DNA from: Pseudomonas marginalis
GTDB taxonomy: Bacteria > Pseudomonadota > Gammaproteobacteria > Pseudomonadales > Pseudomonadaceae
Length of the DNA stretch: 64,000 nucleotides
Direction: 5' to 3'
Assembly: GCF_024169655.1 (NCBI RefSeq)
Contig: NZ_JALJWV010000001.1
Location: 1,679,001-1,743,000 of the forward strand
Shown here: one piece after another, positions 7,461-27,389 of the stretch
Position numbering within the stretch: position 1 is the first letter of the stretch
How the letters are laid out: the number at the start of each line of letters is the position of its first letter
Notes under the pieces: model-generated
What the model saw: the letters and a program-made list of their open reading frames with translations, nothing else
What the model was told of the DNA's origin: nothing
The model's database searches: none
Made by a program: the position numbers and the translations under genes

Positions 7461-8573
7461 ATGAGTGGCAACTTCCTCGCCCTGGCGCAGCCGGGCGTGC
7501 AGCAACTGTCGCCTTACGTTCCAGGCAAGCCTGTGGACGAGCTGGCGCGTGAGTTGAACCTGGACCCGACGAAGATCGTCAAGCTGGCCAGTAACGAGAA
7601 CCCTCTGGGTCCAAGCCCCAAGGTCCTGGCGGCGATTCGTGAAGAGCTGGCCGAGCTGACCCGTTATCCGGATGGCAACGGTTTTGCCCTCAAGTCCCTG
7701 CTGGCGCAAAAGTGCCGGGTCGAGCTGAATCAGGTGACCCTGGGCAACGGTTCCAACGACATTCTTGAACTGGTCGGTCGCGCCTATCTGGCGCCGGGCC
7801 TGAACGCCGTGTTCAGCGAACACGCGTTTGCGGTCTACCCGATCGTCACCCAGGCCGTCGGTGCCGAAGCGCGGGTGATTCCTGCCAAGGACTGGGGCCA
7901 CGACCTGCCGGCCATGCTGGCGGCGATCGATGCGCAGACCCGCGTCGTGTTTATCGCCAACCCGAACAACCCGACCGGCACCTGGTTCGATGCGCAGGCA
8001 CTGAACGACTTCCTACAGGATGTGCCGGAACATGTGCTGGTGGTGCTGGACGAGGCCTACATCGAGTACGCCGAAGGCAGCGACCTGCCCGATGGCCTGG
8101 ATTTCCTCGCGGCCTACCCGAACCTGCTGGTTTCGCGCACGTTCTCCAAGGCTTATGGCCTGGCATCGCTGCGCGTCGGCTACGGCCTGTCGACGGCGGT
8201 GGTGGCTGATGTGCTCAACCGTGTGCGCCAACCGTTCAACGTCAACAGCCTCGCCCTCGCGGCGGCCTGCGCAGCGTTGCAGGATGCCGAGTACCTGGAA
8301 GAAGGGCGGCGCATCAACGAAAGCGGCATGCTGCAGTTGCAGGCCGGCTTTCGTGAGCTGGGCCTGGGCTGGATTCCGTCCAAGGGCAACTTTATCTGCG
8401 TCGATCTCGGCCAGGTGGCGGCCCCGGTGTTCCAGGGCTTGCTGCGCGAAGGCGTGATCGTGCGTCCGGTGGCCAACTACGGCATGCCGAACCACCTGCG
8501 CATCACCGTCGGCCTGCCGGCTGAGAACAGTCGCTTCCTGGAGGCGCTGGCCAAGGTTCTGGCTCGTGGTTGA
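7461..8573 (+). CDS. hisC: Histidinol-phosphate / aromatic aminotransferase (HisC2 type)
   Basis: This 370-aa class I/II PLP aminotransferase has the family motifs LASNENPLGPSP, NPNNPTGTWF, VVLDEAYIEYA, the PLP-lysine motif SRTFSKAYGLASLRVGYG and RPVANYGMPNHLRITVG. Placement between pheA and tyrA in the aromatic operon suggests a main role in transaminating phenylpyruvate or prephenate-derived keto acids, as proposed for Pseudomonas HisC2, in addition to histidinol phosphate. The last 8 bp overlap the next gene. Confidence 0.95.
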   Translation: MSGNFLALAQPGVQQLSPYVPGKPVDELARELNLDPTKIVKLASNENPLGPSPKVLAAIREELAELTRYPDGNGFALKSLLAQKCRVELNQVTLGNGSNDILELVGRAYLAPGLNAVFSEHAFAVYPIVTQAVGAEARVIPAKDWGHDLPAMLAAIDAQTRVVFIANPNNPTGTWFDAQALNDFLQDVPEHVLVVLDEAYIEYAEGSDLPDGLDFLAAYPNLLVSRTFSKAYGLASLRVGYGLSTAVVADVLNRVRQPFNVNSLALAAACAALQDAEYLEEGRRINESGMLQLQAGFRELGLGWIPSKGNFICVDLGQVAAPVFQGLLREGVIVRPVANYGMPNHLRITVGLPAENSRFLEALAKVLARG

Positions 8574-10812
8574 TGTCACTGCATTGCAACCTGCTGTGCC
8601 TATGATCGGTCGCCTGGTGGTGGTCGGTCTGGGCTTGATCGGTGGTTCCTTCGCCAAAGGCCTGCGCGAGAGCGGGTTGTGTGGCGAAGTGGTCGGCGTG
8701 GACCTGGACCCGCAATCGCGCAAGTTGGCGGTTGAGTTGGGGGTCGTCGATCGCTGTGAAGCCGACCTGGCGCTCGCGTGCCAGGGCGCCGATGTGATTC
8801 AGCTCGCCGTGCCGATCCTGGCCATGGAGAAGTTGCTGGCGGTACTGGCCGGCATGGACCTCGGCCAGGCGATCCTCACTGACGTCGGCAGTGCCAAGGG
8901 CAATGTGGTGCGGGCGGCGCAGCAGGCGTTTGGCGAGATGCCCGCGCGTTTTGTGCCGGGCCACCCGATTGCCGGTTCCGAGCAGAGCGGGGTGGAGGCG
9001 TCCAATGCGCAGTTGTTTCGTCGGCATAAAGTGATTCTGACGCCACTGGCGCAAACCGATCCGGCAGCCTTGGCCGTGGTCGATCGTCTGTGGCGCGAGC
9101 TGGGCGCGGATGTGGAGCATATGCAGGTCGAGCGCCACGATGAAGTGCTGGCGGCGACCAGTCATCTGCCCCATCTGCTGGCGTTCGGCCTGGTGGATTC
9201 GTTGGCCAAGCGCAACGAAAACCTCGAGATTTTTCGCTATGCCGCCGGTGGCTTTCGCGATTTCACGCGGATCGCCGGCAGCGACCCGGTGATGTGGCAC
9301 GACATCTTCCTCGCCAACCGCGAGGCCGTGTTGCGCACCCTGGACACCTTCCGTAGCGACCTAGACGCCTTGCGCGACGCGGTCGATGCCGGGGATGGCC
9401 ACCAGTTATTGGGCGTGTTTACCCGTGCGCGGGTGGCGCGTGAACATTTCAGCAAGATCCTGGCGCGCCGGGCCTACATGGAAACCGCAGTGAACGCCGA
9501 TGACCTGACTTTCCTCGCCAACCCGGGCGGCCGCTTGAGCGGGCGTATTCGGGTGCCGGGCGACAAGTCGATCTCCCATCGGTCGATCATGCTCGGTTCG
9601 TTGGCTGAGGGCGTGACCGAAGTCGAGGGTTTCCTTGAGGGTGAAGATGCCCTGGCGACCTTGCAGGCGTTTCGCGACATGGGCGTGGTGATCGAGGGGC
9701 CGCACCATGGGCGCGTGATCATTTATGGTGTCGGGTTGCACGGCTTGAAGCCGGCGCCGGGGCCGATCTATCTCGGCAACTCCGGCACGTCCATGCGCCT
9801 GTTGTCCGGCTTGCTCGCCGCGCAGCGCTTCGACAGCGTGCTGACCGGCGATGCTTCGCTGTCCAAGCGCCCGATGAATCGCGTGGCTGAGCCGCTGCGG
9901 GAAATGGGCGCAGTGATCGAGACCGGCCCGCAAGGGCGTCCGCCGCTGACCATTCGTGGTGGCCAAAAGTTGAAAGGCCTGACCTATACGCTGCCGATGG
10001 CCAGTGCGCAGGTCAAATCCTGCCTGCTGCTGGCGGGCCTGTATGCCGAGGGCAAGACCTCCGTCACCGAGCCGGCCCCGACCCGCGACCATACCGAGCG
10101 CATGTTGCGCGGTTTTGGTTATCCGGTGGAGGTGGTAGGTGCAACGGCGACGGTCGAGTCGGGCCATGCGCTGACGGCCACCCATATTGAAGTGCCGGGG
10201 GATATTTCCTCGTCGGCGTTTTTCCTGGTGGCGGCTTCGATTGCCGAAGGTTCCGAGCTGTTGCTGGAACATGTTGGGATCAATCCGACGCGCACCGGGG
10301 TAATCGACATCCTGCGGCTGATGGGCGCGGATATCACCCTGGAAAACCCGCGTGAAGTGGGCGGCGAGCCGGTGGCCGACCTGCGGGTGCGTGCTGCCGC
10401 GCTGAAAGGGATCGAGATTCCTGAAGCGCTGGTGCCGCTGGCGATTGATGAGTTTCCCGTGCTGTTTGTTGCCGCTGCCTGCGCCCAAGGGCGAACCGTC
10501 TTACGCGGTGCGCAAGAGCTTCGCGTCAAGGAGTCCGACCGTATCCAGGTCATGGCCGACGGTCTGTTGGCGCTGGGCGTGAAGTGTGAACCCACCCCTG
10601 ATGGGATTATCATTGACGGTGGCCTGATGGGCGGTGGTGAGGTCCATGCCCATGGCGATCACCGGATTGCGATGGCGTTCAGCGTGGCTTCGCTGCGAGC
10701 AGCGGCGCCGATTCGTATCCGTGACTGCGCCAATGTTGCTACGTCTTTTCCGAATTTTCTTACACTGTGTGCCCAAGTCGGCATCCGTGTTGCCCAAGAG
10801 GCTCAATTGTGA
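8566..10812 (+). CDS. aroA: Fused prephenate dehydrogenase (TyrA) - EPSP synthase (AroA)
   Basis: This 748-aa protein joins two shikimate/tyrosine enzymes. The N-terminal half has the NAD-binding [16 protein letters not shown] and [14 protein letters not shown] of (arogenate/prephenate) dehydrogenase. From about residue 318 the EPSP synthase domain begins ([19 protein letters not shown]). It carries the motifs used to define class II EPSP synthases: GDKS, SAQVK, RDHTE and NPTR, plus DASLSKRPM. The CP4 glyphosate-insensitivity alanine position is glycine here (GNSGTSMR). The GTG at 8566 overlaps hisC; ATG at 8602 is an alternative giving [11 protein letters not shown]. The TGA stop overlaps the cmk GTG. 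Confidence 0.96.
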
Positions 10813-11498
10813 ATATCAAAGCACCGGTGATTACCATCGACGGGCCAAGCGGCTCGGGCAAGGGCACGATCGCCGGCATCCTGGCCAAGCGCCTGGGCTG
10901 GTGCCTGCTGGATTCCGGCGCGCTGTACCGTCTGCTGGCGTTTGCTGCCCGCAACCACGGCGTCGACCTGACCAACGAAGAATCCCTGAAGCTGCTGGCG
11001 GCGCACCTTGACGTGCAGTTCGTCGGTGCGACAGAAGGTCATCCCCAGCGCATCATCCTGGAAGGGGATGATGTGACCGATGACCTGCGTAATGAGCAAG
11101 TCGGTTCCTGGGCTTCCCAAGTTGCCGCGCTGCCCGCCGTGCGTGATGCGCTGCTGCAGCGCCAGCGGGCGTTTCAGGAGCCGCCGGGCCTGGTGGCCGA
11201 TGGCCGCGACATGGGCACGGTGGTGTTTCCCGAGGCGCCGCTGAAGATTTTCCTGACCGCCAGTGCCGAGGAACGCGCGCGTCGCCGCTACTTGCAGTTG
11301 AAGGGCAAAGTCGATGGTGTTAGTCTGTCGAGTCTGCTAGATGAGATTCGTGCACGCGATGAGCGTGATACCCAGCGCGCAGTAGCCCCGCTCAAGCCGG
11401 CGGCTGATGCCATACAGCTGGATTCCACGGAGTTGTCCATCGAGCAGGTGTTGGAACGCATCTTGAGTGAAATCGCCCTTCGCGATATCACCGGGTGA
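10809..11498 (+). CDS. cmk: Cytidylate kinase
   Basis: This 229-aa kinase phosphorylates CMP/dCMP. The P-loop is [19 protein letters not shown], the NMP-binding region [11 protein letters not shown], and [14 protein letters not shown] plus the lid [10 protein letters not shown] follow. GTG at 10809 (GTGA overlap with the aroA stop) gives the conserved start [12 protein letters not shown] and the normal 229-residue length. cmk-rpsA-ihfB is a widely conserved order. Confidence 0.98.
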
Positions 11499-11582
11499 CC
11501 AAGAAGTCTGCAGGGGACCAGTCATAGTCCTGCGGTGCTTCTTTTAATTGAAACTAACCCACACCGTCTGGGGCGTGGAGAT

Positions 11583-11617
11583 GGGCGTATTCTTCGCCCT
11601 TATCAACAGGAATTAAA
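11583..11617 (+). promoter_or_regulatory. rpsA leader hairpin and ribosome-binding site
   Basis: A small stem (gggcg/cgccc, 11583-11599) precedes an A/U-rich start region with a short AGGA (11608-11611). Weak Shine-Dalgarno and structured leaders are known for E. coli rpsA, where S1 represses its own translation. Similar autogenous control here is an inference. Confidence 0.4.
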
Positions 11618-13312
11618 ATGAGCGAAAGCTTTGCGGAACTCTTTGAAGAAAGCCTAAAAACCCTGAACCTTCAGGCAGGCTCCATCATCACCGGTGTTAT
11701 CGTTGATATCGATTACCAAGCTCGCTGGGTAACCGTTCACGCTGGTCTGAAGTCTGAAGCACTCATCCCGCTTGAGCAGTTCTACAACGACGCTGGCGAT
11801 CTGACTATCAATGTCGGTGACGAAGTTCACGTTGCTCTGGACTCGGTTGAAGACGGTTTCGGTGAAACCAAGCTGTCCCGTGAAAAAGCCAAGCGCGCTG
11901 AATGCTGGATTGTTCTCGAAGCAGCCTTCGCAGCTGAAGAAGTGGTCAAGGGCGTTATCAACGGTAAGGTTAAAGGCGGCTTCACTGTCGACGTTAACGG
12001 CATCCGTGCGTTCCTGCCAGGTTCTTTGGTCGACGTCCGTCCAGTGCGCGACACCACGCACCTGGAAGGCAAGGAACTCGAATTCAAGGTCATCAAGCTC
12101 GATCAGAAACGCAACAACGTTGTCGTTTCCCGTCGCAGCGTCCTGGAAGCAGAGAACTCCGCCGAGCGTGAAGCTCTGCTGGAATCCCTGCAGGAAGGCC
12201 AACAAGTCAAAGGTATCGTCAAAAACCTCACCGATTACGGCGCATTCGTCGATCTGGGTGGCGTCGATGGCCTGCTGCACATTACCGACATGGCTTGGAA
12301 GCGTATCAAGCATCCTTCCGAAATCGTCAACGTTGGCGACGAGATTGATGTCAAGGTTCTGAAATACGATCGCGAACGCAACCGTGTTTCCCTGGGCCTG
12401 AAGCAACTGGGTGAAGATCCATGGGTCGCTATCAAAGCCCGTTACCCAGAAAGCACTCGCGTCACCGCGCGTGTTACCAACCTGACCGACTACGGCTGCT
12501 TCGCTGAGCTGGAAGAAGGCGTTGAAGGCCTGGTACACGTTTCCGAAATGGACTGGACCAACAAAAACATCCACCCTTCGAAAGTCGTACAAGTCGGCGA
12601 CGAAGTGGAAGTTATGGTTCTGGACATCGACGAAGAGCGTCGTCGTATCTCCCTGGGCATCAAGCAGTGCAAATCTAACCCATGGGAAGATTTCTCTGGC
12701 CAGTTCAACAAGGGCGATAAAATCTCCGGCACCATCAAGTCGATCACCGATTTCGGTATCTTCATTGGTCTGGACGGCGGCATCGACGGCCTGGTTCACC
12801 TGTCCGACATCTCCTGGAACGAAGTGGGCGAAGAAGCTGTTCGTCGCTTCAAGAAGGGCGACGAGCTGGACACCGTTATCCTGTCGGTTGACCCAGAGCG
12901 CGAGCGCATCTCCCTGGGTATCAAGCAACTGGAAAGCGATCCGTTCTCCGAGTACGTTCAAGAGAACGACAAAGGCGCAATCGTTAAAGGCATCGTGAAA
13001 GAAGTTGACGCTAAAGGCGCCATCATCACTCTCGCCGACGATATCGAAGCGACTCTGAAAGCCTCCGAAATCAGCCGTGACCGCGTTGAAGACGCGCGCA
13101 ACGTTCTGAAAGAAGGCCAGGAAGTAGAAGCCAAGATCATCAGCGTTGACCGCAAGAGCCGCGTGATCCAACTCTCCATCAAGTCCAAGGACGAGATCGA
13201 AGAGAAAGAAGCTATCCAGAGCCTGCGCGACAAGCCAGCTACCTCTGACATCGCTTCGGGTCCGACCACTCTGGGCGACCTGCTGCGTGCACAAATGGAA
13301 AAACAGAACTGA
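11618..13312 (+). CDS. rpsA: 30S ribosomal protein S1
   Basis: This 564-aa protein consists of six S1 (OB-fold) repeats. Repeats 3-6 carry clear RNA-binding signatures such as [48 protein letters not shown] and [25 protein letters not shown]. The first two repeats (degenerate) bind the ribosome via S2. S1 recruits and unfolds mRNA on the 30S subunit. Codon use is strongly biased (for example GTT, GCT, CGT), as expected for a very highly expressed gene. A strong terminator follows. Confidence 0.99.
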
Positions 13313-17662: not shown

Positions 17663-19255
17663 TTAAGCTGCCTTTACTATTTTTTGATGGGCGACTTGCA
17701 GAATATTGGCAACCGTCCAGTACAGCACCATCCCGGAAGGGAATGAGTAAAATAGCAGGAAGAATCCCAGTCCCATCAGTCCGGTAGTGAGGCTTTGGCG
17801 CAGCGATGATGTTCCGTCGGCTGGTGTGGTTGGGTTAAGTTTTATACTCAATATCGTTGTCAAAGACATCAGTACGGGGAGTAAGTTGAAATAGGAGCCA
17901 AATAGAGGTAAATCTATTCCCAATGAAAACAACTGGTCTGGTTCAGCCAGTGTTTTCATCCATAGGAAAGATGCATCTCTCAATTCAAATGTTTGCCCTA
18001 GTAAATGGTAAAGAGAAATGAATATAGGCACCTGAATTAGTACGATCAAAAGCGGTTTCAGACCTGCCAGCGGGCTTACTTTATGATATTCGTAAAGCTG
18101 AAGGATTCTTTCACTTTGCTCCCCTCCTTTGTAGTTTTTACGAATCTCTTGTAGCTCTGGCTGGATACGGGCCTGAATAGCTGAAAATTTCTTCTGCGCC
18201 AGAATTGCATTCTTGGCGATTGGGTATACCGCTAAGCGTACGAGTACCGCCAGCAGAATGATCGCAATCCCCCAACTGCCAACTATTTGCTGAATAAAAT
18301 GCAATAGATGCATGATGGTCAAGCTTAACCATCGCATCCAATCCCACAGACCGGAAAACAGCAATCCGTCCAACTCCGGCGTTTGAGCGATGAGTGCCGC
18401 ATAAGCTTTGCCTCCTCCAAACACGCTCCATTGGTAGGATTGAACGGGTTGGCTACCCGGCTCTCCAACGGGTAAGAGGATGTTGATTGACGTTTCGAAC
18501 GAGTCGTACTCGGCGTTGCCTGTTAAGGTTTGTGGAGTGTTGGCTTGCCACATAGCGCGCTTCGCGAGATCGCTGGAGGGCGTCATGATGAGTGCGAGGT
18601 AACGGCTTTGAAGGCCTACCCAGCTCCACTGACCCGCTTCATGAGATGTGTACCCAACTGGCCGGTCGGTATTGTTCAATCGAACTGTTGTGATGCCTTC
18701 GGCATTGCGATAAACCAATTCAGTGAACGAATAAATACTTTGCCCCATGCCTAGGCCTGTGGCAGGGATTTCCCCAATACCTGGCCCGACCTGCAATACA
18801 AGGTGATCGGTCGGGCTTGTTTTCAGGCTCTTGAGGTCTAGGTCCAAGGCGAAGTCAACCCGCCACTGGTTCTCCTGCAGTCGCCAAGTCTTCCGGATAC
18901 TGAAGGGTAGCTCGGGGCTTTCCAGGCCGATCACTATTGCATTGGGCTGCTGTTCAACGATCTTCCATCCGCCAGCCATTAGCTGCCAATCAGCCAAGGA
19001 CTTGCCGTCAAGCTCGCCACTCAGCAAAAACAGCTGTCCCTTCGGGGCGGCCATGTCTTGAGCGTGCCCAGATGCACCGCGCAGTTGAGGGAGCGACCAG
19101 TGCTGAACAGCGCCCGATGAGAGGTTAAAGTCCAAATGCAAGTTTGCATTTGAAAGTGCGGCCGTTGACTGGTCTGCTGCTTGCGCGACTTGAATAAGCA
19201 GCAGCAGCAACCAGCAGAACCAATTGCGCGGAGTGTATTTTTTATGCGAGGGCAT
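17663..19255 (-). CDS. YidC/Oxa1-family insertase paralogue in a polysaccharide operon
   Basis: The 530-aa protein has a signal-like N-terminus (to about residue 27), a large periplasmic P1-type beta domain (about 30-285) and five YidC core segments. The core keeps the hydrophilic-groove arginine (Arg340 in AIILLAVLVRLAVYPIAKNA), the cytoplasmic helical hairpin (QPELQEIRKNY), PLLIVLIQVPIFISLYHLL and FPSGMVLYWTVANILQ. YidC inserts small membrane proteins. The housekeeping Pseudomonas yidC is near oriC, so this should be a second, specialised copy. It follows the 75-aa membrane protein gene, a plausible client. It lacks a long basic tail. Confidence 0.9.
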   Translation of the reverse strand: MPSHKKYTPRNWFCWLLLLLIQVAQAADQSTAALSNANLHLDFNLSSGAVQHWSLPQLRGASGHAQDMAAPKGQLFLLSGELDGKSLADWQLMAGGWKIVEQQPNAIVIGLESPELPFSIRKTWRLQENQWRVDFALDLDLKSLKTSPTDHLVLQVGPGIGEIPATGLGMGQSIYSFTELVYRNAEGITTVRLNNTDRPVGYTSHEAGQWSWVGLQSRYLALIMTPSSDLAKRAMWQANTPQTLTGNAEYDSFETSINILLPVGEPGSQPVQSYQWSVFGGGKAYAALIAQTPELDGLLFSGLWDWMRWLSLTIMHLLHFIQQIVGSWGIAIILLAVLVRLAVYPIAKNAILAQKKFSAIQARIQPELQEIRKNYKGGEQSERILQLYEYHKVSPLAGLKPLLIVLIQVPIFISLYHLLGQTFELRDASFLWMKTLAEPDQLFSLGIDLPLFGSYFNLLPVLMSLTTILSIKLNPTTPADGTSSLRQSLTTGLMGLGFFLLFYSFPSGMVLYWTVANILQVAHQKIVKAA

Positions 19256-19617: not shown

Positions 19618-20763
19618 TTACTTAATTAAAGAAACCAAATAAGCAGCAGCTGTGTCGCCGCTTTGCCCTGAGTTATAAATCCAGCGCTGGCGTATATTTT
19701 TCAGCGCTGTTTGCCATTTTTTTGAATCGACAGCTATGGCACACGCAATATTTCCTAGCTCTGCTAACTCGTTCGTTGGTACCACAACACCTAAGTGCTC
19801 GCGTGCTTGTACTTCTATCGGTTCAATGCCGATTGCAGTGTATTCTGAGTTGAGTACTTTGCGTGGGACGTCTGCAAATATGACCGGGCGTTCCAGCCCC
19901 AGCGAAAACTCCAACGCCGCACCGGACCAGTCGCTGAGCATGATATCCGAATCTAGCAGCGAGGTGGCGGCATCACTATCTTCATCCAGTCGGAATCGCG
20001 GTTCATCGCGGTAATATGCGGCAATGACATCCAATTTGTCGGGTGTCAATTTGCGCGTGCGGGGATGGGGGCGTAGTACAACCTTCAGGCCAGCATCGAT
20101 CAGCGGTCTGATCACATCAAGCCCGTGGCGCTCAATAAGGCCATTTTCACCCCATGTAGGCGCTACCAGTATCTGCACCGGTTCACCGTGACGTTCGTGA
20201 GGGCCTTGACGGCCGCTTTCGAGGATCGTATCAAGACGTCCGTAACCATGCTCTATCAGAGTTTTTGGACGCAGGTCGAGTAGTTTTTCCCTGGCTCTGG
20301 TCTCTTTAACGTGGTGAGGGCCGACGCACAGAATTGAATCAAAATGATCAAATGCCGCTGCACGGTAAATCATGTGTGTGCTGACGATCGAGTGATGCAG
20401 GTATGTATAGTGGACCGAAAAGGGAGAGCGTTTGATGTGAAAGCTCTGCAAGTCAGGCATGGTCATCAAGAGAACATCTGCGTCCAATGTGGCAAAGAAC
20501 AGTGTGCGCATAGTGCCTTCACCAATATAGAAAGAACGCATTCCTGCTAGCGGTTTTTCCAGTAAAGGGTCGTTCTCGGCAGATGTCACATATAAGATCG
20601 GTGCGCCATGATTCACTTGGAGTGCTTTGTAGATGGGTTCAAAGTAAGTCCAGTAGCCGCGACCCTCGGAATAGAACACCAGCGTGCGCTCTTCGCGTGG
20701 AATGCGCTTGAACGCTTGCAAGCCCCTCCACTCGCGGAGCATTTTGCGTATAGCAGTGAGCAT
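19618..20763 (-). CDS. CDP-glycerol glycerophosphotransferase (TagF/TagB-like) family protein
   Basis: The 381-aa protein shows the conserved C-terminal pattern of this family: VVLRPHPRTRK, then DSDIMLSDWSGAALEFSLGLERPVIFADVP. These enzymes move a phospho-group from a CDP-linked donor to a glycan acceptor. The usual donor is CDP-glycerol, but no glycerol cytidylyltransferase is evident here. Because the operon is predicted to make CDP-amidate, this is the leading candidate for the phosphoramidate transferase; that is inference. It has no membrane segment and starts 2 bp after the cytidylyltransferase stop. Confidence 0.8.
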   Translation of the reverse strand: MLTAIRKMLREWRGLQAFKRIPREERTLVFYSEGRGYWTYFEPIYKALQVNHGAPILYVTSAENDPLLEKPLAGMRSFYIGEGTMRTLFFATLDADVLLMTMPDLQSFHIKRSPFSVHYTYLHHSIVSTHMIYRAAAFDHFDSILCVGPHHVKETRAREKLLDLRPKTLIEHGYGRLDTILESGRQGPHERHGEPVQILVAPTWGENGLIERHGLDVIRPLIDAGLKVVLRPHPRTRKLTPDKLDVIAAYYRDEPRFRLDEDSDAATSLLDSDIMLSDWSGAALEFSLGLERPVIFADVPRKVLNSEYTAIGIEPIEVQAREHLGVVVPTNELAELGNIACAIAVDSKKWQTALKNIRQRWIYNSGQSGDTAAAYLVSLIK

Positions 20764-20765
20764 GC

Positions 20766-21545
20766 TCAGTCCCTAAGCTGGATGAATGTGTCCAACTGCC
20801 CGCTGCGAAGCAGTTCATGATATTGGTTCAGATCTTCGACGGTGTCGACTTCCAGCCATCCGTTATCAGTGAATGCAGCCCGGGCACTCCACCCGGTATC
20901 GATCAGGTGCTGCAAAAACGTCGTCATGTACATATTGTCGAAATCTTTTCCGTCTCGTAGAACAGTACGGTCCAGTTTGTACCAGGCATCGCGAAAAGCT
21001 TTTACGCAATCCCCTCTAACCTTGATCAACCCCATGTACTGCCCTTGCACATCGCTATAGCTCGACGGCTTTTTCCCGAGCTCGGTGATGCAGTTTTCGC
21101 TGTTTAGCTTCAGTGTTTCTGCATCGGACAGCGGGTTCTCCATGCGGATTTCCCAGAACCTGCGCCACTCTCGATCTATTGAGATCGCAAGCGGGGCGTC
21201 AGTGCCTAGTAAGCTCTCAAGTACTGACTGCTCATAGACGATGTCGCCGTAAGCGATAAGTAAATCCTCTCCCTCAACCATCCATTCTTGCGCACAAAAT
21301 AGAGTCGAGACCATATTGGTGCTAGCGAAGCGAGGGTTGTGCAGCACTTCGACGCCTTGTCCCTCAAGACAGTCGGCGCGATATCCGCCTACCAGCGCAA
21401 TATCTTTCAATCCCGCAGCTCTCAGCACATCCAGTTGGCGGTGCAGCAGGGGACGTCCATGCAGTTCAACCAGGCACTTGGGCCGATCATCCGTAAAAGG
21501 GCGCAGTCGTGTGCCTTGACCAGCTGCTAGGATAATTACGCGCAT
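20766..21545 (-). CDS. LicC-like cytidylyltransferase, candidate CTP:phosphoglutamine cytidylyltransferase
   Basis: The 259-aa protein begins with the nucleotidyltransferase signature IILAAGQGTRLRPFTDDRPK (Lys23) and has the metal-binding LIAYGDIVYEQS, the LicC-type NPRFASTNMVSTLF and a C-terminal WLEVDTVEDL. LicC uses phosphocholine; the C. jejuni relative Cj1416 uses L-glutamine phosphate to make CDP-L-glutamine. The two upstream neighbours match Cj1417 and Cj1418, which favours the Cj1416-like role. Its start overlaps the upstream gene by 10 bp. Other phospho-substrates cannot be excluded. Confidence 0.8.
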   Translation of the reverse strand: MRVIILAAGQGTRLRPFTDDRPKCLVELHGRPLLHRQLDVLRAAGLKDIALVGGYRADCLEGQGVEVLHNPRFASTNMVSTLFCAQEWMVEGEDLLIAYGDIVYEQSVLESLLGTDAPLAISIDREWRRFWEIRMENPLSDAETLKLNSENCITELGKKPSSYSDVQGQYMGLIKVRGDCVKAFRDAWYKLDRTVLRDGKDFDNMYMTTFLQHLIDTGWSARAAFTDNGWLEVDTVEDLNQYHELLRSGQLDTFIQLRD

Positions 21546-22183
21546 GGTGTGTCCTTACTAAAGAAGAGGTGACGAATAAGCTTTGCATCAAGGATGGCGT
21601 TAGCGGAGGGCCTCTCGGGATGCCACATTATGGCTGTCCAGGGAAGTTGGCGGTGAACAAATGCCTCGATGGAGCCGTCGTCTGCCCAAGCTTGGGCTAG
21701 CAAGTTTTCTGCCAGATCCTTGGGCTGAATGCCCCAGCCATGGAAACTGTTGACTTCTCGATAGCCTGCCAGCAGTGGCGCGTGCTCTGTAACGCTGATG
21801 GTGTGTGTACAGCTAACGTGACCGGAGAGAGGTGTGAGGCTGCCACCCAGAAAATGATTGAGCATTTGCATTCCGCGACAAACGGCCAGCACCGGAAGGT
21901 TCATGTCTCTGGCCCTGGCTAATAGAGCGGTCTCCGTAGCATCGCGCTCCGGTGACGAGTTGACGGCGGCGGGAAGATGGGCGAGATCATTTCCACCACT
22001 CAATATAAGGCCGGCAACATTTTGGCGCTCGAACCAGCCGCCAGCCGATGATAACCCATTGGGCACCGGCACCAAGTCGATCCCCAGTTTTTCCATGAAA
22101 GTCGACCAGCGTTGATCAAGGCAATCACGCTGCTCGTCGTACCCAGGGACCCGTTCAGCGCGCTGTGTAATTGCAATACGCAC
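21536..22183 (-). CDS. Class I glutamine-amidotransferase-like hydrolase (peptidase C26 family), candidate gamma-glutamyl-CDP-amidate hydrolase
   Basis: The 215-aa protein has the full amidotransferase triad: nucleophile Cys102 in VLAVCRGMQMLNHFLGG and His188/Glu190 in IMWHPERPS, with an LILSGGNDL oxyanion region. It has no synthetase partner domain, as in gamma-glutamyl hydrolases such as PuuD. C. jejuni Cj1417 is of this type and releases glutamate from CDP-L-glutamine to leave CDP-amidate. GTG start; the preceding stop overlaps it by one base (TAGTG), so the two proteins are made together. Confidence 0.82.
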   Translation of the reverse strand: MRIAITQRAERVPGYDEQRDCLDQRWSTFMEKLGIDLVPVPNGLSSAGGWFERQNVAGLILSGGNDLAHLPAAVNSSPERDATETALLARARDMNLPVLAVCRGMQMLNHFLGGSLTPLSGHVSCTHTISVTEHAPLLAGYREVNSFHGWGIQPKDLAENLLAQAWADDGSIEAFVHRQLPWTAIMWHPERPSANAILDAKLIRHLFFSKDTPCA

Positions 22184-25100
22184 TAGCGGATCACCCGAAT
22201 TATGCGATTCCCGGCATCCAGTTCCAGGCTTTGCGCGGCCGCCAATGCGCGATATTGCGTCTCGCCGACCCCTAATGCTGCTGGCAAGCCAAACTCCGCT
22301 GCGCGGATGGCCATGTGCGAGTTGGCGCCGCCATACATGGTGATCAACCCCGCAATCTGTCGACCGAAGAGCCAGTCATAGCCGGGATCGGCCTGTGGGA
22401 TCATTGCAATTTTCCCGGCAAGCTCCTGCTCATCAATGCTTTGGCTCAGGTCCACGCAAGTGCCTCGTACTATTCCCGTGCCAACAAAGTTGGGTTGCGT
22501 TGCCGGATAGAGGAATGCACTGAAGTCCTCTGTTGAACACAGTAGGGGAGGCAGTTCAATAACTTGTATTTGCTGATGTTCAGTCCTACCTGTATCGGCT
22601 TGCGCAAGCAAATTCTGGCTAAGCTCCTTTGGACTTAACGTTGAGCCTCTTAGCGCCATCAGTTTTTGAATTTCGATGTAGGCCAGGTCTTCGCGGGAAA
22701 TACCCAGAGGTTCGGCCCAGTTCACCAATGTATCCAGAGCCATGGAAAGGTTGCGAGTGAAGGCAAACTTAGCGTACTCGCGTCCCTCGATAGCCTGCCT
22801 TAAAAATAGCTCCAACTCATCAGCACTACCTGCAATGCCTTGCTCGTTCAGGGCTTTAGTAAATCGTTGTCTCGCCTGCTGCCATAGTTGACCATTTACC
22901 AAGGTTGTCAAAGGTTGCGAGGCCGCGCTTTCGACGATGGGGGTCAGGTAGCGTTCGGGGTCTGCGCGATAGCTCAGCGAATTGATGTCATAGGTTCCCG
23001 GGCGTAAATGGCCATACTTATGGACAAAGTCTGCGCGGCTTATCTCTCCGTTGAAGCAGTCTAGGGCATCATGCGTTAGCGTATGGCTGATGGTTCGAAT
23101 GGAACTCAGGAAGTCATCCATTTCTGCTTCGGTCAAGATACCGGTATTGACTGCAGAGCGCAGGAACGTTACAGCAACGAAAGCGCTTCGTGCCAAATGC
23201 GCGAAAGGCAATGCGCCATACCGACGACAATCGTGTAATAACGTCGAGACAAGTTCCAAGGGGGGCAGGGACGACGAGGCTAGGTGGGCAAAGCGCTGCT
23301 CAAGCTCAGTTACGACAGCCAAATCGTGGCTGTTGCGCATAATGGCGTTCTGGCTGATTTCTCGTAATCCGTCACGCAAAAGCTCGATCTCTTGGGTGAA
23401 AAATCCGCCATGCGTACTCAGTCGCTCATGCCAACGATTAAAGTCTAATGCAAAGCAAGTGGGGACAACATCAAACTCCACCTTGTCGTGAAGGTGAGGG
23501 TGTTGTTCCAACCAGGACAGGTAGAAGTCAACCAGGCGGCCTGCAAGTGCATCGTCCAGCCCCTTGGGAATAAACGAGTTGAAACTTGCTCGGATATCGA
23601 CGTAAGGGTGGCCGGCAAAACTGATCAATAGCGGTTGTGGGCGAACATCCCGGTAGCCGTACTCGGCCCGTTGGGTGGCCCATGTCTCATCCATGATCAG
23701 ATATTGGTAGAGGCTGACTGATAAAGGTGTCGGTTTGGTTCCAATGATTTCGGCGGGATTCCAGTCCGGCATGATCCCGAATAAGCCTCGCTGCCCCACA
23801 ACGAACGGCGCCGGTTGCTGCAGTCGGTTGAACAGCTCACGGGCTTCGTCCAGGCGTTTCAGGATATCCACGTCGCTGCCGTCCCATCTGGAATGATCCA
23901 CCGCGATGGGGCGAACCTGCAGGATGTGTAATCCTGCGTCGGCTGTAATCGCAAACTCAACGTCCAGAGAATCGTAACCCAATAAAGATTCAATCTCCCG
24001 CAACGCAGGAAGCAGTCCGCGCAACCGTTCGGGAATATTCGTGCTGTGCGTGCAGGCATCACGCCTCATCAGCAGTGTCTTGTCATCGTGACTGCTGCCA
24101 CTGGTGATCGATTCAGTACTGCCGCTTGTGTCATCGTAGTTGACGACGTAATAGGGCGCGCCACTGCTCAAACTACGAGTGAACGCGACGCCGCTCGCAA
24201 GCACTTTTTCCAGCATGGGTTGAACCAGCACCTGATTCTCAGGGTTGGTATCACTATAAGAGGCGATAACGTGCTCAATTGCGTTTTTCAGGCTCGTAGC
24301 GTTACGGCCATCGATGTTCAGCAGGCTGGTGTAGGCGCCGGCATTCGAGTTGACAAATCCATCTTCGGACAGCGCACTGCTGCGAATAACCAAGTATTGA
24401 TCAGGGAAGTCTTGCTGGATGGTGTCAATCAGTGACTCGGGGATTTCCTGCCACTGGGCAACGGTGAAACTGACTTGATCTTCAATTCGGCTAAGCTTGA
24501 CCATTCGACGCAAACGGCGAAGAGTCTGTGCTTTGGTGCCTAATACGAAATGTGCGAGATCTTGAGGCTCATTGAGTTCGGCCCAGTCACCTTGCACGTC
24601 AACCGCTTGAACATTCATTCCCTGGCAACGCAGCGCTTCAACGAGATCAGAGAGGTGACCCTTCTGGAAGCGCTGTTGCAGGTCAACTTTGGATTCCTGC
24701 AAGTATTGGACTGCCCGCGGCCCAAAATGAACGCACCCAACGAACTCCGCCGAGGCGAGGCTAGACGGGATGTCGGGTCCCAGTCGCGTGATCAACTTTC
24801 CGAAAAGGCAGACTTTCTCGCTACGCTCCAAGTCTGAACGAGTACGGCCTGCGTAGCGCGTACGCCAATGGCTGTCGACTGCAACACTGATATCGGCCTG
24901 TGACTCGACCATGGCGTCAATCAAACTGCGACGAAACAGGATGTCGGAGTAGGAGACCAGGCTCTTGGTTTTGTCAGTCAGGTCAACTTGCAGAAATGAA
25001 TAGGCAGATTGGGTAACCTGCCAGTCGCCGTTAATCCAGTAGTTGAAGTCGGGGTACCGTTCCTTGATCGTATCCACTTTATAGCCGCCGACAAAATGAA

Positions 25101-25236
25101 CGTCCGACGCGCGCGAGGTCGTGGCGTGAAGCAGCCAGTCGATAACGCGCGTGTGGCCAGAAGCGCTGCGTAACGCAGCGTGTTCGTCACCTTGGAAGGG
25201 CTTGCCTGCCCCGAGAAAAATTATGGCTGACTGCAT
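22183..25236 (-). CDS. Nucleotidyltransferase-like domain fused to a PEP-synthase-like (glutamine kinase) protein
   Basis: From ATG at 25236 the protein is 1017 aa. Residues 1-265 form an NTase-like domain (SAIIFLGAGKPFQG, LVSYSDILF), but its glycine loop is degenerate and the lysine of the usual RPK is absent. From about 285 a PPDK-type ATP-grasp domain follows (YLVIRSSALSEDG, NAGAYTSLL, VLVQPML, LDVEFAI, LHILQVRPIAVDH). The C-terminal mobile domain carries the catalytic histidine His974 in GGANSHMAIRAAEFGLPAAL. C. jejuni Cj1418 has the ATP-grasp/His-domain layout and phosphorylates the amide of L-glutamine. An in-frame upstream start at 25341 would overlap the previous gene and precede the domain by 35 residues. 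Confidence 0.85.
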   Translation of the reverse strand: MQSAIIFLGAGKPFQGDEHAALRSASGHTRVIDWLLHATTSRASDVHFVGGYKVDTIKERYPDFNYWINGDWQVTQSAYSFLQVDLTDKTKSLVSYSDILFRRSLIDAMVESQADISVAVDSHWRTRYAGRTRSDLERSEKVCLFGKLITRLGPDIPSSLASAEFVGCVHFGPRAVQYLQESKVDLQQRFQKGHLSDLVEALRCQGMNVQAVDVQGDWAELNEPQDLAHFVLGTKAQTLRRLRRMVKLSRIEDQVSFTVAQWQEIPESLIDTIQQDFPDQYLVIRSSALSEDGFVNSNAGAYTSLLNIDGRNATSLKNAIEHVIASYSDTNPENQVLVQPMLEKVLASGVAFTRSLSSGAPYYVVNYDDTSGSTESITSGSSHDDKTLLMRRDACTHSTNIPERLRGLLPALREIESLLGYDSLDVEFAITADAGLHILQVRPIAVDHSRWDGSDVDILKRLDEARELFNRLQQPAPFVVGQRGLFGIMPDWNPAEIIGTKPTPLSVSLYQYLIMDETWATQRAEYGYRDVRPQPLLISFAGHPYVDIRASFNSFIPKGLDDALAGRLVDFYLSWLEQHPHLHDKVEFDVVPTCFALDFNRWHERLSTHGGFFTQEIELLRDGLREISQNAIMRNSHDLAVVTELEQRFAHLASSSLPPLELVSTLLHDCRRYGALPFAHLARSAFVAVTFLRSAVNTGILTEAEMDDFLSSIRTISHTLTHDALDCFNGEISRADFVHKYGHLRPGTYDINSLSYRADPERYLTPIVESAASQPLTTLVNGQLWQQARQRFTKALNEQGIAGSADELELFLRQAIEGREYAKFAFTRNLSMALDTLVNWAEPLGISREDLAYIEIQKLMALRGSTLSPKELSQNLLAQADTGRTEHQQIQVIELPPLLCSTEDFSAFLYPATQPNFVGTGIVRGTCVDLSQSIDEQELAGKIAMIPQADPGYDWLFGRQIAGLITMYGGANSHMAIRAAEFGLPAALGVGETQYRALAAAQSLELDAGNRIIRVIR

Positions 25237-25295: not shown

Positions 25296-27389
25296 TTACC
25301 AGCCTTGTGCGCCTTCGCTCCAATAACCGAAGGCGAAGCACTTGCGGAGTGGGTCAAGCAACTCTGGATTTAGTCTTGAGGCGATCGTGCAGGAGGCGTA
25401 AGCGCCGTGTGCCAGTAGCTTGTAGCCCGCGCCATTGGATCGATATATGTACTGAGGAGTCTTCTCCTGGCTGAGTTCGGGATCCCGAGGCAACTTTTTG
25501 ATAAAAGTAGGTGCCAAGCCAGGGATCCAATCGGCCGCAGAGCGTCCCCATATACTGAATAAACCGTCGAAGCCCTGGCTGAGTGGGTAGCTGCCTTTTG
25601 CCTGGTGATATTTTTCCAGAGCGTCCCGGATTTCAGCTAGGTCGCGTAGACGCTGTTCATAGCGCGTCATTTCGGACGCTCTGAATGTAATTGCTCCGGT
25701 GGATTTTAGTGCGGATAAAAAATCATTATCTCTGAGAATGCTGACTGTGATCTGAGTATCAAAATCAAAAGACGAAGTCTGATCTTTTACTACATCTAAA
25801 TAGAGTTTATTGTCGTCGTGTTGAGGTGTTGCGCTTAGAAGGTCAACTCCCGTGTATTCGTTGCATTGAGAATCGCTGGGGGCGTGAAGGCACAGTGTTT
25901 TGGCGAGGTCGGTCAGGCTACTAAGTTCGCTGTTATATATTATTGAATCATTGGCGCTGGACGGCGCCTTGATCATCAAAAGTGGGCGGTATCGGTTATA
26001 ACCCCATAGTGGGTGATCGTTGAATGTGATACCGTCGGGATCAGATTCGAAGTAGTTGGCAGGCGCGCCATGATCACTTTTTACGATGAGAGTCGTTTGA
26101 TCGTAAACGCCAAGCGCTTTGAGCTTCTCTATATAAGTTGCGGTCTGCTGAAGTGCGCAGTAAGTCTCATTTAGTAGGCCTTGATAGTTTTGATTCGAAT
26201 TGAACCACTCTGCGCTATCGCTTCTGTAAGTGCAATTTTCGTCAAAGTCCACGGGGAAGTGGGTGTGTAGGAAGTGCATGAAACGCACTGTACGTCGTGA
26301 GTTGGTAACGTGCAGATTTTGAGTGAGCGCTACCAGATCGTCACGCTGTAGGGTGTTCTGCGCGTCCCACGGCGCGCCTTGATGGGCCAGGGTTCGCTCC
26401 GCTTTTGAGTCTTGCAGATAAGTCTGTTTGACGGTTCGAAGTTCGTCGGCTACGAATTTGGCCAAAACGGGAGAACCAATGCGCGCCGCAATATGTGGGT
26501 AAAAGCTCAGGGCAATCGACGCTTGCTCGCCGAAACTGTTATCGATAAGGGTTCCGGGGATGATGACGTCTGGTAATGTGTCATTGAACGAACTGTATAC
26601 CCCATACGTCATGACATCCGAGGAAGCTAGTTGCTCGCGTTTTATTGAGTTTATTTTTTTAGATAACTTATTATTCAGCTCGCCTGATACGGTGCTTAAT
26701 GCCCTAAAATCCATATTTCCATAAATTTCAGAGCGTAGTGAGGCCTCCGTTGCTGGCGCTATGGAAATGGCGTTGTCGTAAAAAATCAAGTCCTTGAACG
26801 CAGTCTTCAAATCTGGATGTTCTTCAATTACCTGCTTCGCTACGTTACCGGCTACACCGTCGAAGCTCAGAACGATGACGTTATCGTTTTTTGAGAGGCC
26901 GGAGAAGCGACCCATAGACGCTCCTGTGTCAATAAGGGTATATGCGGCGGAGCCCAAAGATGTTGAAAGCAATATCAGTACGAACGCTTGGGTTGCAGGT
27001 TTGATTTTTGTATAAGTCAACAGGGTCAGAATGAGTGCCAGGCTGCCTACGATTACTAAGTTTCGATAGTTAATAGGCAAGTCCTCAGGGGATGCCATGC
27101 CCGCTTGGCCTGCTAAGGGTAATAGTAAGCCTGATAGGCAGGTCCAGAATATAATGAAATAAAGTATGCCCGATGCTAGCCAGTTTAGGCGTAACCAAGT
27201 CAGAACTGTGGATGCCAAAAAAAGAACGCTACTTGCTATGGCGGTCAATGCTATCGAAAAAAAGAAAAATTCTTTTATGCTGAAATTTACGTCGCTTAGC
27301 GCAAGGTAAACGACATAAAGTGGAATCCATAAAAACAGTGTGGATGCAGTCAAGAATGAAAGCGCTGAGCGTTTTAAAATGGTGGACAT
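25296..27389 (-). CDS. Membrane-anchored alkaline-phosphatase-superfamily (sulfatase-like) enzyme with pseudopilin-like C-terminus
   Basis: The 697-aa protein starts with about five membrane helices (to residue 150). A sulfatase/phosphoglycerol-transferase-type domain follows, with metal ligand SFDG (Asp177), a likely Thr214 nucleophile in APATEASLRS, HTHFP (375-379) and KSDHG (Asp439, His440). The last ~130 residues (RLRDLAEIRDALEKYHQAKGSYP, KLPRDPE, YIYRSNGAGYKLL) resemble the C-terminal part of type II secretion G pseudopilins, an odd fusion. Like LtaS, EptA or OpgB it probably acts on the periplasmic side, adding or removing a phospho-group. It is first in the minus-strand operon. Confidence 0.8.
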   Translation of the reverse strand: MSTILKRSALSFLTASTLFLWIPLYVVYLALSDVNFSIKEFFFFSIALTAIASSVLFLASTVLTWLRLNWLASGILYFIIFWTCLSGLLLPLAGQAGMASPEDLPINYRNLVIVGSLALILTLLTYTKIKPATQAFVLILLSTSLGSAAYTLIDTGASMGRFSGLSKNDNVIVLSFDGVAGNVAKQVIEEHPDLKTAFKDLIFYDNAISIAPATEASLRSEIYGNMDFRALSTVSGELNNKLSKKINSIKREQLASSDVMTYGVYSSFNDTLPDVIIPGTLIDNSFGEQASIALSFYPHIAARIGSPVLAKFVADELRTVKQTYLQDSKAERTLAHQGAPWDAQNTLQRDDLVALTQNLHVTNSRRTVRFMHFLHTHFPVDFDENCTYRSDSAEWFNSNQNYQGLLNETYCALQQTATYIEKLKALGVYDQTTLIVKSDHGAPANYFESDPDGITFNDHPLWGYNRYRPLLMIKAPSSANDSIIYNSELSSLTDLAKTLCLHAPSDSQCNEYTGVDLLSATPQHDDNKLYLDVVKDQTSSFDFDTQITVSILRDNDFLSALKSTGAITFRASEMTRYEQRLRDLAEIRDALEKYHQAKGSYPLSQGFDGLFSIWGRSAADWIPGLAPTFIKKLPRDPELSQEKTPQYIYRSNGAGYKLLAHGAYASCTIASRLNPELLDPLRKCFAFGYWSEGAQGW

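Follow-up and report, generated by a model that had tools for sequence, protein, structure and literature searches.

Within the O-antigen locus of Pseudomonas marginalis we found a minus-strand cassette that carries orthologues of the Campylobacter jejuni genes Cj1418-Cj1417-Cj1416. The window analysed is a stretch of 64,000 nucleotides (RefSeq assembly GCF_024169655.1, contig NZ_JALJWV010000001.1, positions 1,679,001 to 1,743,000) from a genome that consists of one contig of 6.38 Mb; coordinates below are those of the window. The cassette is predicted to make cytidine diphosphate (CDP)-amidate and probably serves to put an unmethylated phosphoramidate on O-antigen or core sugars through a TagF-like transferase. 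It runs from 27389 to 16294 and encodes, in this order, an LtaS/sulfatase-like protein, a kinase, a C26-type hydrolase, a cytidylyltransferase, a TagF-like protein, a YidC-family protein and a formyltransferase-domain protein. Hereafter, 'the triad' stands for the genes of the kinase, the hydrolase and the cytidylyltransferase. The features that carry the argument are the following.

22183..25236, minus strand: L-glutamine-kinase-family protein (like phosphoenolpyruvate (PEP) synthase and rifampin phosphotransferase), 1017 aa; kinase at residues ~230-1017, catalytic His974, family NF004508
24550..25236, minus strand: nucleotidyltransferase-fold N-terminal domain of the kinase, 23% identical to Cj1416, predicted to be non-catalytic or altered
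21536..22183, minus strand: relative of the gamma-glutamyl-CDP-amidate hydrolase (Cj1417-type), Cys102/His188/Glu190, best NCBIfam match NF045546
20766..21545, minus strand: phosphoglutamine cytidylyltransferase (Cj1416-type), reciprocal best match with Cj1416
19618..20763, minus strand: TagF-like protein (Glyphos_transf, PF04464), predicted phosphoramidate transferase from PF04464, Foldseek and linkage to the fused triad

The original prediction had placed a Campylobacter-type phosphoramidate pathway here, in three contiguous, overlapping genes followed by a TagF-like gene, and this arrangement holds: all four genes are open at these coordinates on the minus strand, the kinase and hydrolase genes overlapping by 1 base and the hydrolase and cytidylyltransferase genes by 10 bases; the TagF-like gene comes 2 bases on, and the YidC-family gene starts 362 bases past it. 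The comparison with Cj1416-1418, chosen beforehand as the test on which that prediction could fall, returned orthologues of all three proteins. Firstly, the window kinase is 38% identical to Cj1418 over 803 columns (E 3e-169), the hydrolase 32% to Cj1417 (E 9e-31) and the cytidylyltransferase 42% to Cj1416 (E 1e-73). Secondly, the window hydrolase matches nothing but Cj1417 in the C. jejuni genome, and the window cytidylyltransferase finds Cj1416 there at 4e-60, the runner-up reaching 1e-4; conversely, Cj1416 finds the window cytidylyltransferase first in the window genome (3e-59), making the two reciprocal best matches (44%), and the fused N-terminal domain of the kinase second (1.5e-12). Thirdly, the kinase-hydrolase-cytidylyltransferase order, their adjacency and the single strand are the same in both species, and all catalytic residues checked are conserved. 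The reference, located through a diagnostic primer pattern, was the genome of C. jejuni strain GP013, which holds one NF004508 match; its locus consists of a 380-aa DUF2972 protein, two relatives of the Pseudomonas methyltransferase discussed below, the kinase, directly after it the hydrolase (above the NF045546 equivalog cut-off), the cytidylyltransferase, a PRK05541-type kinase and then two further proteins, which we take to be KpsC and KpsS. Cj numbers were given to the GP013 genes from gene order and passages of the literature (PMC11800397). Passages of two papers describe C. jejuni enzymes for N-phosphoglutamine, CDP-glutamine and CDP-amidate as characterised (PMC11800397, PMC10971088). 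The sequence comparison supports the interpretation of these genes as a Campylobacter-type triad and, with the analogy to C. jejuni, makes the synthesis of CDP-amidate by the triad very likely.

Against the family NF004508 the kinase scores 918 bits (cut-off 501; C. jejuni kinase 1173-1175 bits), and it is the sole match above cut-off in its own genome. His974, numbered from the ATG at 25236, lies within GGANSHMAIRA and aligns with His737 of the C. jejuni kinase, which we take to be the phosphorylated residue of Cj1418. An AlphaFold model of the kinase (predicted local distance difference test, pLDDT, 83) was compared by Foldseek: the N-terminal part matches CTP:inositol-1-phosphate cytidylyltransferase and its relatives, and the remainder has rifampin phosphotransferases on top. 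The latter, together with a sequence match at the His domain, speaks against a glutamine kinase and for antibiotic inactivation by a rifampin phosphotransferase. That function is barely conceivable, given the 33 bits for RIF_Ptrans_rph against a cut-off of 999, compared with 918 against 501 for NF004508, and the constant partnership with the hydrolase and the cytidylyltransferase. Rifampin phosphotransferase and PEP synthase were accordingly rejected on family scores, the former having been named in the original prediction as a best match that would count against it. Very improbable too is a phosphocholine-type (LicC) or other CDP-alcohol decoration in which the kinase would be an unrelated PEP-synthase-like enzyme. 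LicC is the best PDB match of the cytidylyltransferase (57 bits), and several kinase homologues are named 'choline kinase' by the Joint Genome Institute (JGI), both of which are arguments for choline; yet Cj1416 matches far better (202.7 bits), so that the LicC likeness first reported for this protein gives way and a LicC/phosphocholine pathway was rejected. In addition, the kinase stands above the cut-off of a family that includes the C. jejuni kinase, and a Cj1417-type hydrolase has no known role in a choline pathway. JGI also names a close kinase homologue (88%) 'glutamine kinase' and a close hydrolase homologue (96%) 'N5-(cytidine 5'-diphosphoramidyl)-L-glutamine hydrolase'. The residues Cys102/His188/Glu190 of the hydrolase were confirmed, but its best NCBIfam match, NF045546, reaches 127 bits, under the curated cut-off of 250 (C. 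jejuni protein 329-331 bits), and we do not claim it as an equivalog of that family; the cut-off was passed in none of the 398 genomes of the phylum. The window cytidylyltransferase keeps the signature residues, and its C. jejuni counterpart scores 291 bits against NF004041, above cut-off.

The three genes travel together. Members of the hydrolase family turned up at E <=1e-25 in 8 of 398 genomes of the phylum, kinases above the family cut-off in 23 of 298 Pseudomonas genomes and P0001 matches at E 1e-40 in 10 of 369 genomes of the class; the window's own genome is part of each count. From these, 36 further loci were opened, 7 via the hydrolase (G261 among them, also reached via the kinase), 20 via the kinase and 9 via P0001, with G543 left out. 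The full triad is present in 22 of the 22 kinase-positive Pseudomonas genomes opened (G543 not opened). Each of the 36 further loci has kinase, hydrolase and cytidylyltransferase grouped on a single strand, and 35 keep the kinase-hydrolase-cytidylyltransferase order, the exception being L091; overall, the triad occurs in at least two layouts. The kinase His and the hydrolase Cys/His/Glu, which the original prediction had pointed out in the window, as well as the loop residues and both Asp of the cytidylyltransferase, show no variation across the 38 aligned loci, which comprise the window and C. jejuni. The pairwise distance matrices of the triad proteins correlate (r 0.92, 0.89 and 0.85), with none of 2000 permutations as high, and the three genes evolve as a unit. 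Chance is excluded because of the kinase score (918 bits against a cut-off of 501) and the joint presence of the triad in 36/36 other loci. In the phage and plasmid collections, a family member occurs in 1 phage record and 14 plasmids, no Campylobacter being among them.

The window kinase differs from that of C. jejuni by residues 1 to ~230, a separate nucleotidyltransferase-fold domain that the latter is without. The start at ATG 25236, giving 1017 aa, fits because 118 of 120 homologues (the best 120 of 4110 matches, drawn from 7995 candidates) have at least 960 aa. When the 118 long homologues were aligned with the window protein (n=119; the two shorter ones were dropped), the fused domain proved to retain LGAG-P--G and Asp98 and to have lost the signature Arg and the Lys of the G-loop. 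Its second metal Asp is Asn in 117/119 and Asp in 2/119, whereas stand-alone cytidylyltransferases have Asp in 38/38. We predict from these residues that the fused domain is non-catalytic or altered in activity. Other triads carry other N-terminal extensions: the L086 kinase (8563-11499) an APS-kinase domain matching Cj1415, the L088 kinase (8924-11725) a CTP_transf_like domain, the L087 kinase an extension with a sub-threshold NTP-transferase match, and the L051 and L052 kinases extensions in which no domain was recognised. The kinase N-terminus therefore seems to be a place where pathway-type enzymes are fused on.

The TagF-like protein matches PF04464 at 28.3 bits (gathering cut-off 22.1), and the seven best Foldseek matches of its model (pLDDT 92) are all TagF, at 14-16% identity in the structural alignments. 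A sequence search of the PDB with the TagF profile gave nothing at E 0.01. TagF is a CDP-glycerol phosphotransferase, and PF04464 members of known function, TarL (8va1) among them, use CDP-glycerol or CDP-ribitol; moreover, a GT-B fold alone leaves the donor unfixed. Both points weigh against a CDP-amidate donor and suggest that the enzyme could be an ordinary CDP-glycerol glycerophosphotransferase or a glycosyltransferase, the phosphoramidate being moved by another protein such as the LtaS-like one. We regard this as unlikely, since no CTP_transf_like (TagD-type) maker of CDP-glycerol was detected in the 35 window open reading frames (ORFs) scanned with Pfam, and since the TagF-like gene tracks the fused triad. 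Of 298 Pseudomonas genomes, 5 have this gene, including all three with a window-type fused kinase. Of the 6 window-type loci (the window, L054, L055, L083, L084 and L085, with 5 kb opened for L085), 5 carry it downstream of the triad, and in L054, L055 and L085 it stands directly after the cytidylyltransferase gene. Among the matches listed, 17 contigs of at least 10 kb, paired on equal size, are common to kinase and TagF homologues, for a control mean of 0.125. The window enzyme thus has PF04464 membership above cut-off, the fold seen by Foldseek and a predicted CDP-linked donor in common with the teichoic acid polymerases TagF and TarL; it differs in its low structural-alignment identity and in its predicted donor, CDP-amidate and not CDP-glycerol or CDP-ribitol.

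Part of the C. jejuni pathway is missing from this picture. A Cj1415-type kinase, which would act at the 3' position, occurs in none of the 6 window-type loci vs 26 of the 31 others; the hypergeometric probability of 2e-4 (7e-4 without L085) serves as a guide only, because the loci are related. L087 calls for caution here, as the weak nucleotidyltransferase match at its kinase N-terminus coexists with a Cj1415-type kinase in the same locus. A Pfam scan of 35 window ORFs showed no APS_kinase domain, and the window genome gave two weak matches to the Cj1415-type kinase, of 49 and 43 bits, both outside the window. The 49-bit match scores 88 bits against the PRK05541 cut-off of 127 and lies above the cut-off for an ordinary adenylyl-sulfate kinase (cysC); the 43-bit one, a 635-aa frame, fell outside the family scan. 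In comparison, the four Cj1415-like kinases scanned from non-Campylobacter triad loci (L045, L087, L017 and L050) all pass PRK05541. As for methylation, Pfam found no methyltransferase domain in the seven cassette proteins, and homology found no Cj-type methyltransferase in the window-type loci L054, L055 and L083-L085; such a gene is present in 11 of 27 first-set loci. A rule that a TagF-like gene means no 3'-kinase was rejected: it fails outside the window type, L047-L053 holding both a TagF-like gene of a different subfamily and a Cj1415-like kinase, and L017 a Cj1415-like kinase with a weak match to the window TagF.

These absences point to a shorter route, in which CDP-amidate itself would be the donor and an unmethylated phosphoramidate would be left on lipopolysaccharide (LPS) sugars, plain phosphoramidate being proposed as the group because there is no methyltransferase. 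Following Campylobacter chemistry, N-phosphoglutamine would be formed first, the cytidylyltransferase would join it to CTP to give CDP-L-glutamine, and the hydrolase would remove glutamate to yield CDP-amidate. As fold and linkage suggest, the TagF-like enzyme would then use CDP-amidate in the cytoplasm to attach phosphoramidate to a hydroxyl group of a sugar, with release of CMP, before the repeat unit is flipped. More tentatively, at somewhat less than even chances, window-type loci may represent a second, shorter branch of the pathway, with CDP-amidate lacking 3'-phosphate and methylation as donor for a TagF-type phosphotransferase, and with a glutamine kinase whose fused cytidylyltransferase domain would be dead, serving to bind pathway nucleotides or to channel N-phosphoglutamine. 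One idea is that the Campylobacter transferases are sulfotransferase-like and that the 3'-phosphate is a handle like that of 3'-phosphoadenosine 5'-phosphosulfate, which would explain window-type loci without a 3'-kinase. The Campylobacter neighbour scanned is a DUF2972 protein, and a triad neighbour in L089 has a weak Sulfotransfer_3 match (E 0.0033, under cut-off).

The target of the group is a separate matter, and here the remaining features of the locus come in.

25296..27389, minus strand: membrane protein of the LtaS/sulfatase family, the gene with which the minus-strand cassette begins, PF00884 at 29.7 bits (cut-off 25)
17663..19255, minus strand: YidC/Oxa1-family insertase, second copy of the genome, PF02096
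16294..17658, minus strand: Formyl_trans_N-domain protein, PF00551
14883..16247, plus strand: wzz, regulator of chain length, in the left part of the O-antigen locus, PF02706
27965..49951, plus strand: O-antigen locus with rfbF/G/H-type CDP-3,6-dideoxyhexose genes, flippase-like gene, glycosyltransferases, guanosine diphosphate (GDP)-mannose dehydratase and WbpL/WbpM-like proteins, from domain scans

The cassette sits inside the O-antigen locus, between wzz and the remaining O-antigen genes, and from this position the O-antigen or core is the inferred target. Beyond the cassette, glucose-1-phosphate cytidylyltransferase, CDP-glucose dehydratase and RfbH each score above their NCBIfam cut-off; the labels wbpL and wbpM are names that we presume to apply. 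The triad may make CDP-amidate for something other than O-antigen or core, be it a glycolipid, a protein glycan or a small molecule. Two observations argue in that direction and against our assignment: same-family triads adjoin flagellar-gene relatives in five Pseudomonas loci, so that the triad does not fix the target, and the LtaS-like protein and second YidC of the cassette could serve another envelope polymer. The location of the window cassette, with wzz on one side and the remaining O-antigen genes on the other, together with the L054 cassette, likewise flanked by wzz and rfbF/G-type genes, makes another target rather unlikely, and we favour O-antigen or core sugars.

Compared with the C. 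jejuni O-methyl phosphoramidate (MeOPN) pathway (Cj1415-Cj1418, transferases Cj1421/Cj1422), the window is thus alike in its orthologous triad, its gene order, its catalytic residues and its place in a surface-polysaccharide locus. It is unlike it in the extra domain of the kinase, in the Cj1415-type kinase and cassette MeOPN-type methyltransferase that were not found, in the TagF-like enzyme in the transferase's place and in the O-antigen instead of a capsule locus. Hence, of the Campylobacter-type pathway originally proposed, the synthesis triad stands and the later steps would differ. In nine other Pseudomonas loci (L041-L046, L058-L060) the triad is accompanied by a Cj1415-like kinase and by a methyltransferase of the Cj type, which makes the MeOPN set nearly complete. 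They have the three core genes in common with the window and differ from it by a stand-alone kinase, by the two additional enzymes alongside and by a 396-aa-type protein, which lies upstream and in which, for the two examples scanned, no Pfam family was recognised.

Unmethylated phosphoramidate has been described, in passages of the literature, in Xanthomonas campestris lipooligosaccharide (LOS; PMC8042644, PMC3907429) and Shewanella MR-4 LPS (PMC3907429). The window would probably place the same chemical group on a Gram-negative LPS; the comparison is by group, since these passages name no genes. The term 'C. jejuni-specific glutamine kinase' is used in a passage of a 2022 review (PMC9561416), and a passage of a 2014 paper places MeOPN genes in several Campylobacter species (PMC3907429); among the matches listed, titles and abstract openings gave no report of phosphoramidate genes in Pseudomonas. 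Few biological molecules contain a P-N bond. The triad is a candidate for the genetic origin of the phosphoramidate reported on Xanthomonas and Shewanella LPS, and our reading predicts a new class of donor and transferase. If true, the shorter branch would explain how LPS comes to bear unmethylated phosphoramidate across Gammaproteobacteria. The decoration may also matter for phage receptors: C. jejuni phage F336 reportedly, to go by a paper title, recognises capsular phosphoramidate.

Other observations concern the neighbours of the triad. In L017, L047, L048, L049 and L050, the triad and a Cj1415-like kinase have relatives of flagellar genes as neighbours (FlgL-, FlgK- and FlgJ-type; representatives in L049/L050 were scanned), which suggests, on the basis of gene neighbourhood, that a flagellin glycan bears phosphoramidate in some Pseudomonas. 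Four of these five loci have a TagF-like gene of another subfamily, and L017 a weak match to the window-type TagF. A promoter scan was uninformative (3 found vs 11 expected). The LtaS-like protein has a 59% relative in L054 and a 27% relative in L055; its C-terminal tail shows a weak T2SSG (type II secretion pseudopilin) match (E 0.0026, under cut-off). The genome has two YidC-family genes, and the cassette copy occurs also in L054 and L055, hence in three Pseudomonas genomes. The Formyl_trans_N-domain protein is conserved in L054 and L055, and similar proteins recur near other triads; an H-x-S-x-LP motif is absent from all 14 distinct Formyl_trans_N-type sequences checked. A family member 34% identical to a Pseudomonas kinase is encoded at 676-2988 of the phage record (MT837632.1), which is 9.5 kb long and labelled as a fecal 'Bacteriophage sp.'. 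Lastly, the GC content of the cassette is ~0.47-0.54, vs 0.60-0.66 at the window ends.

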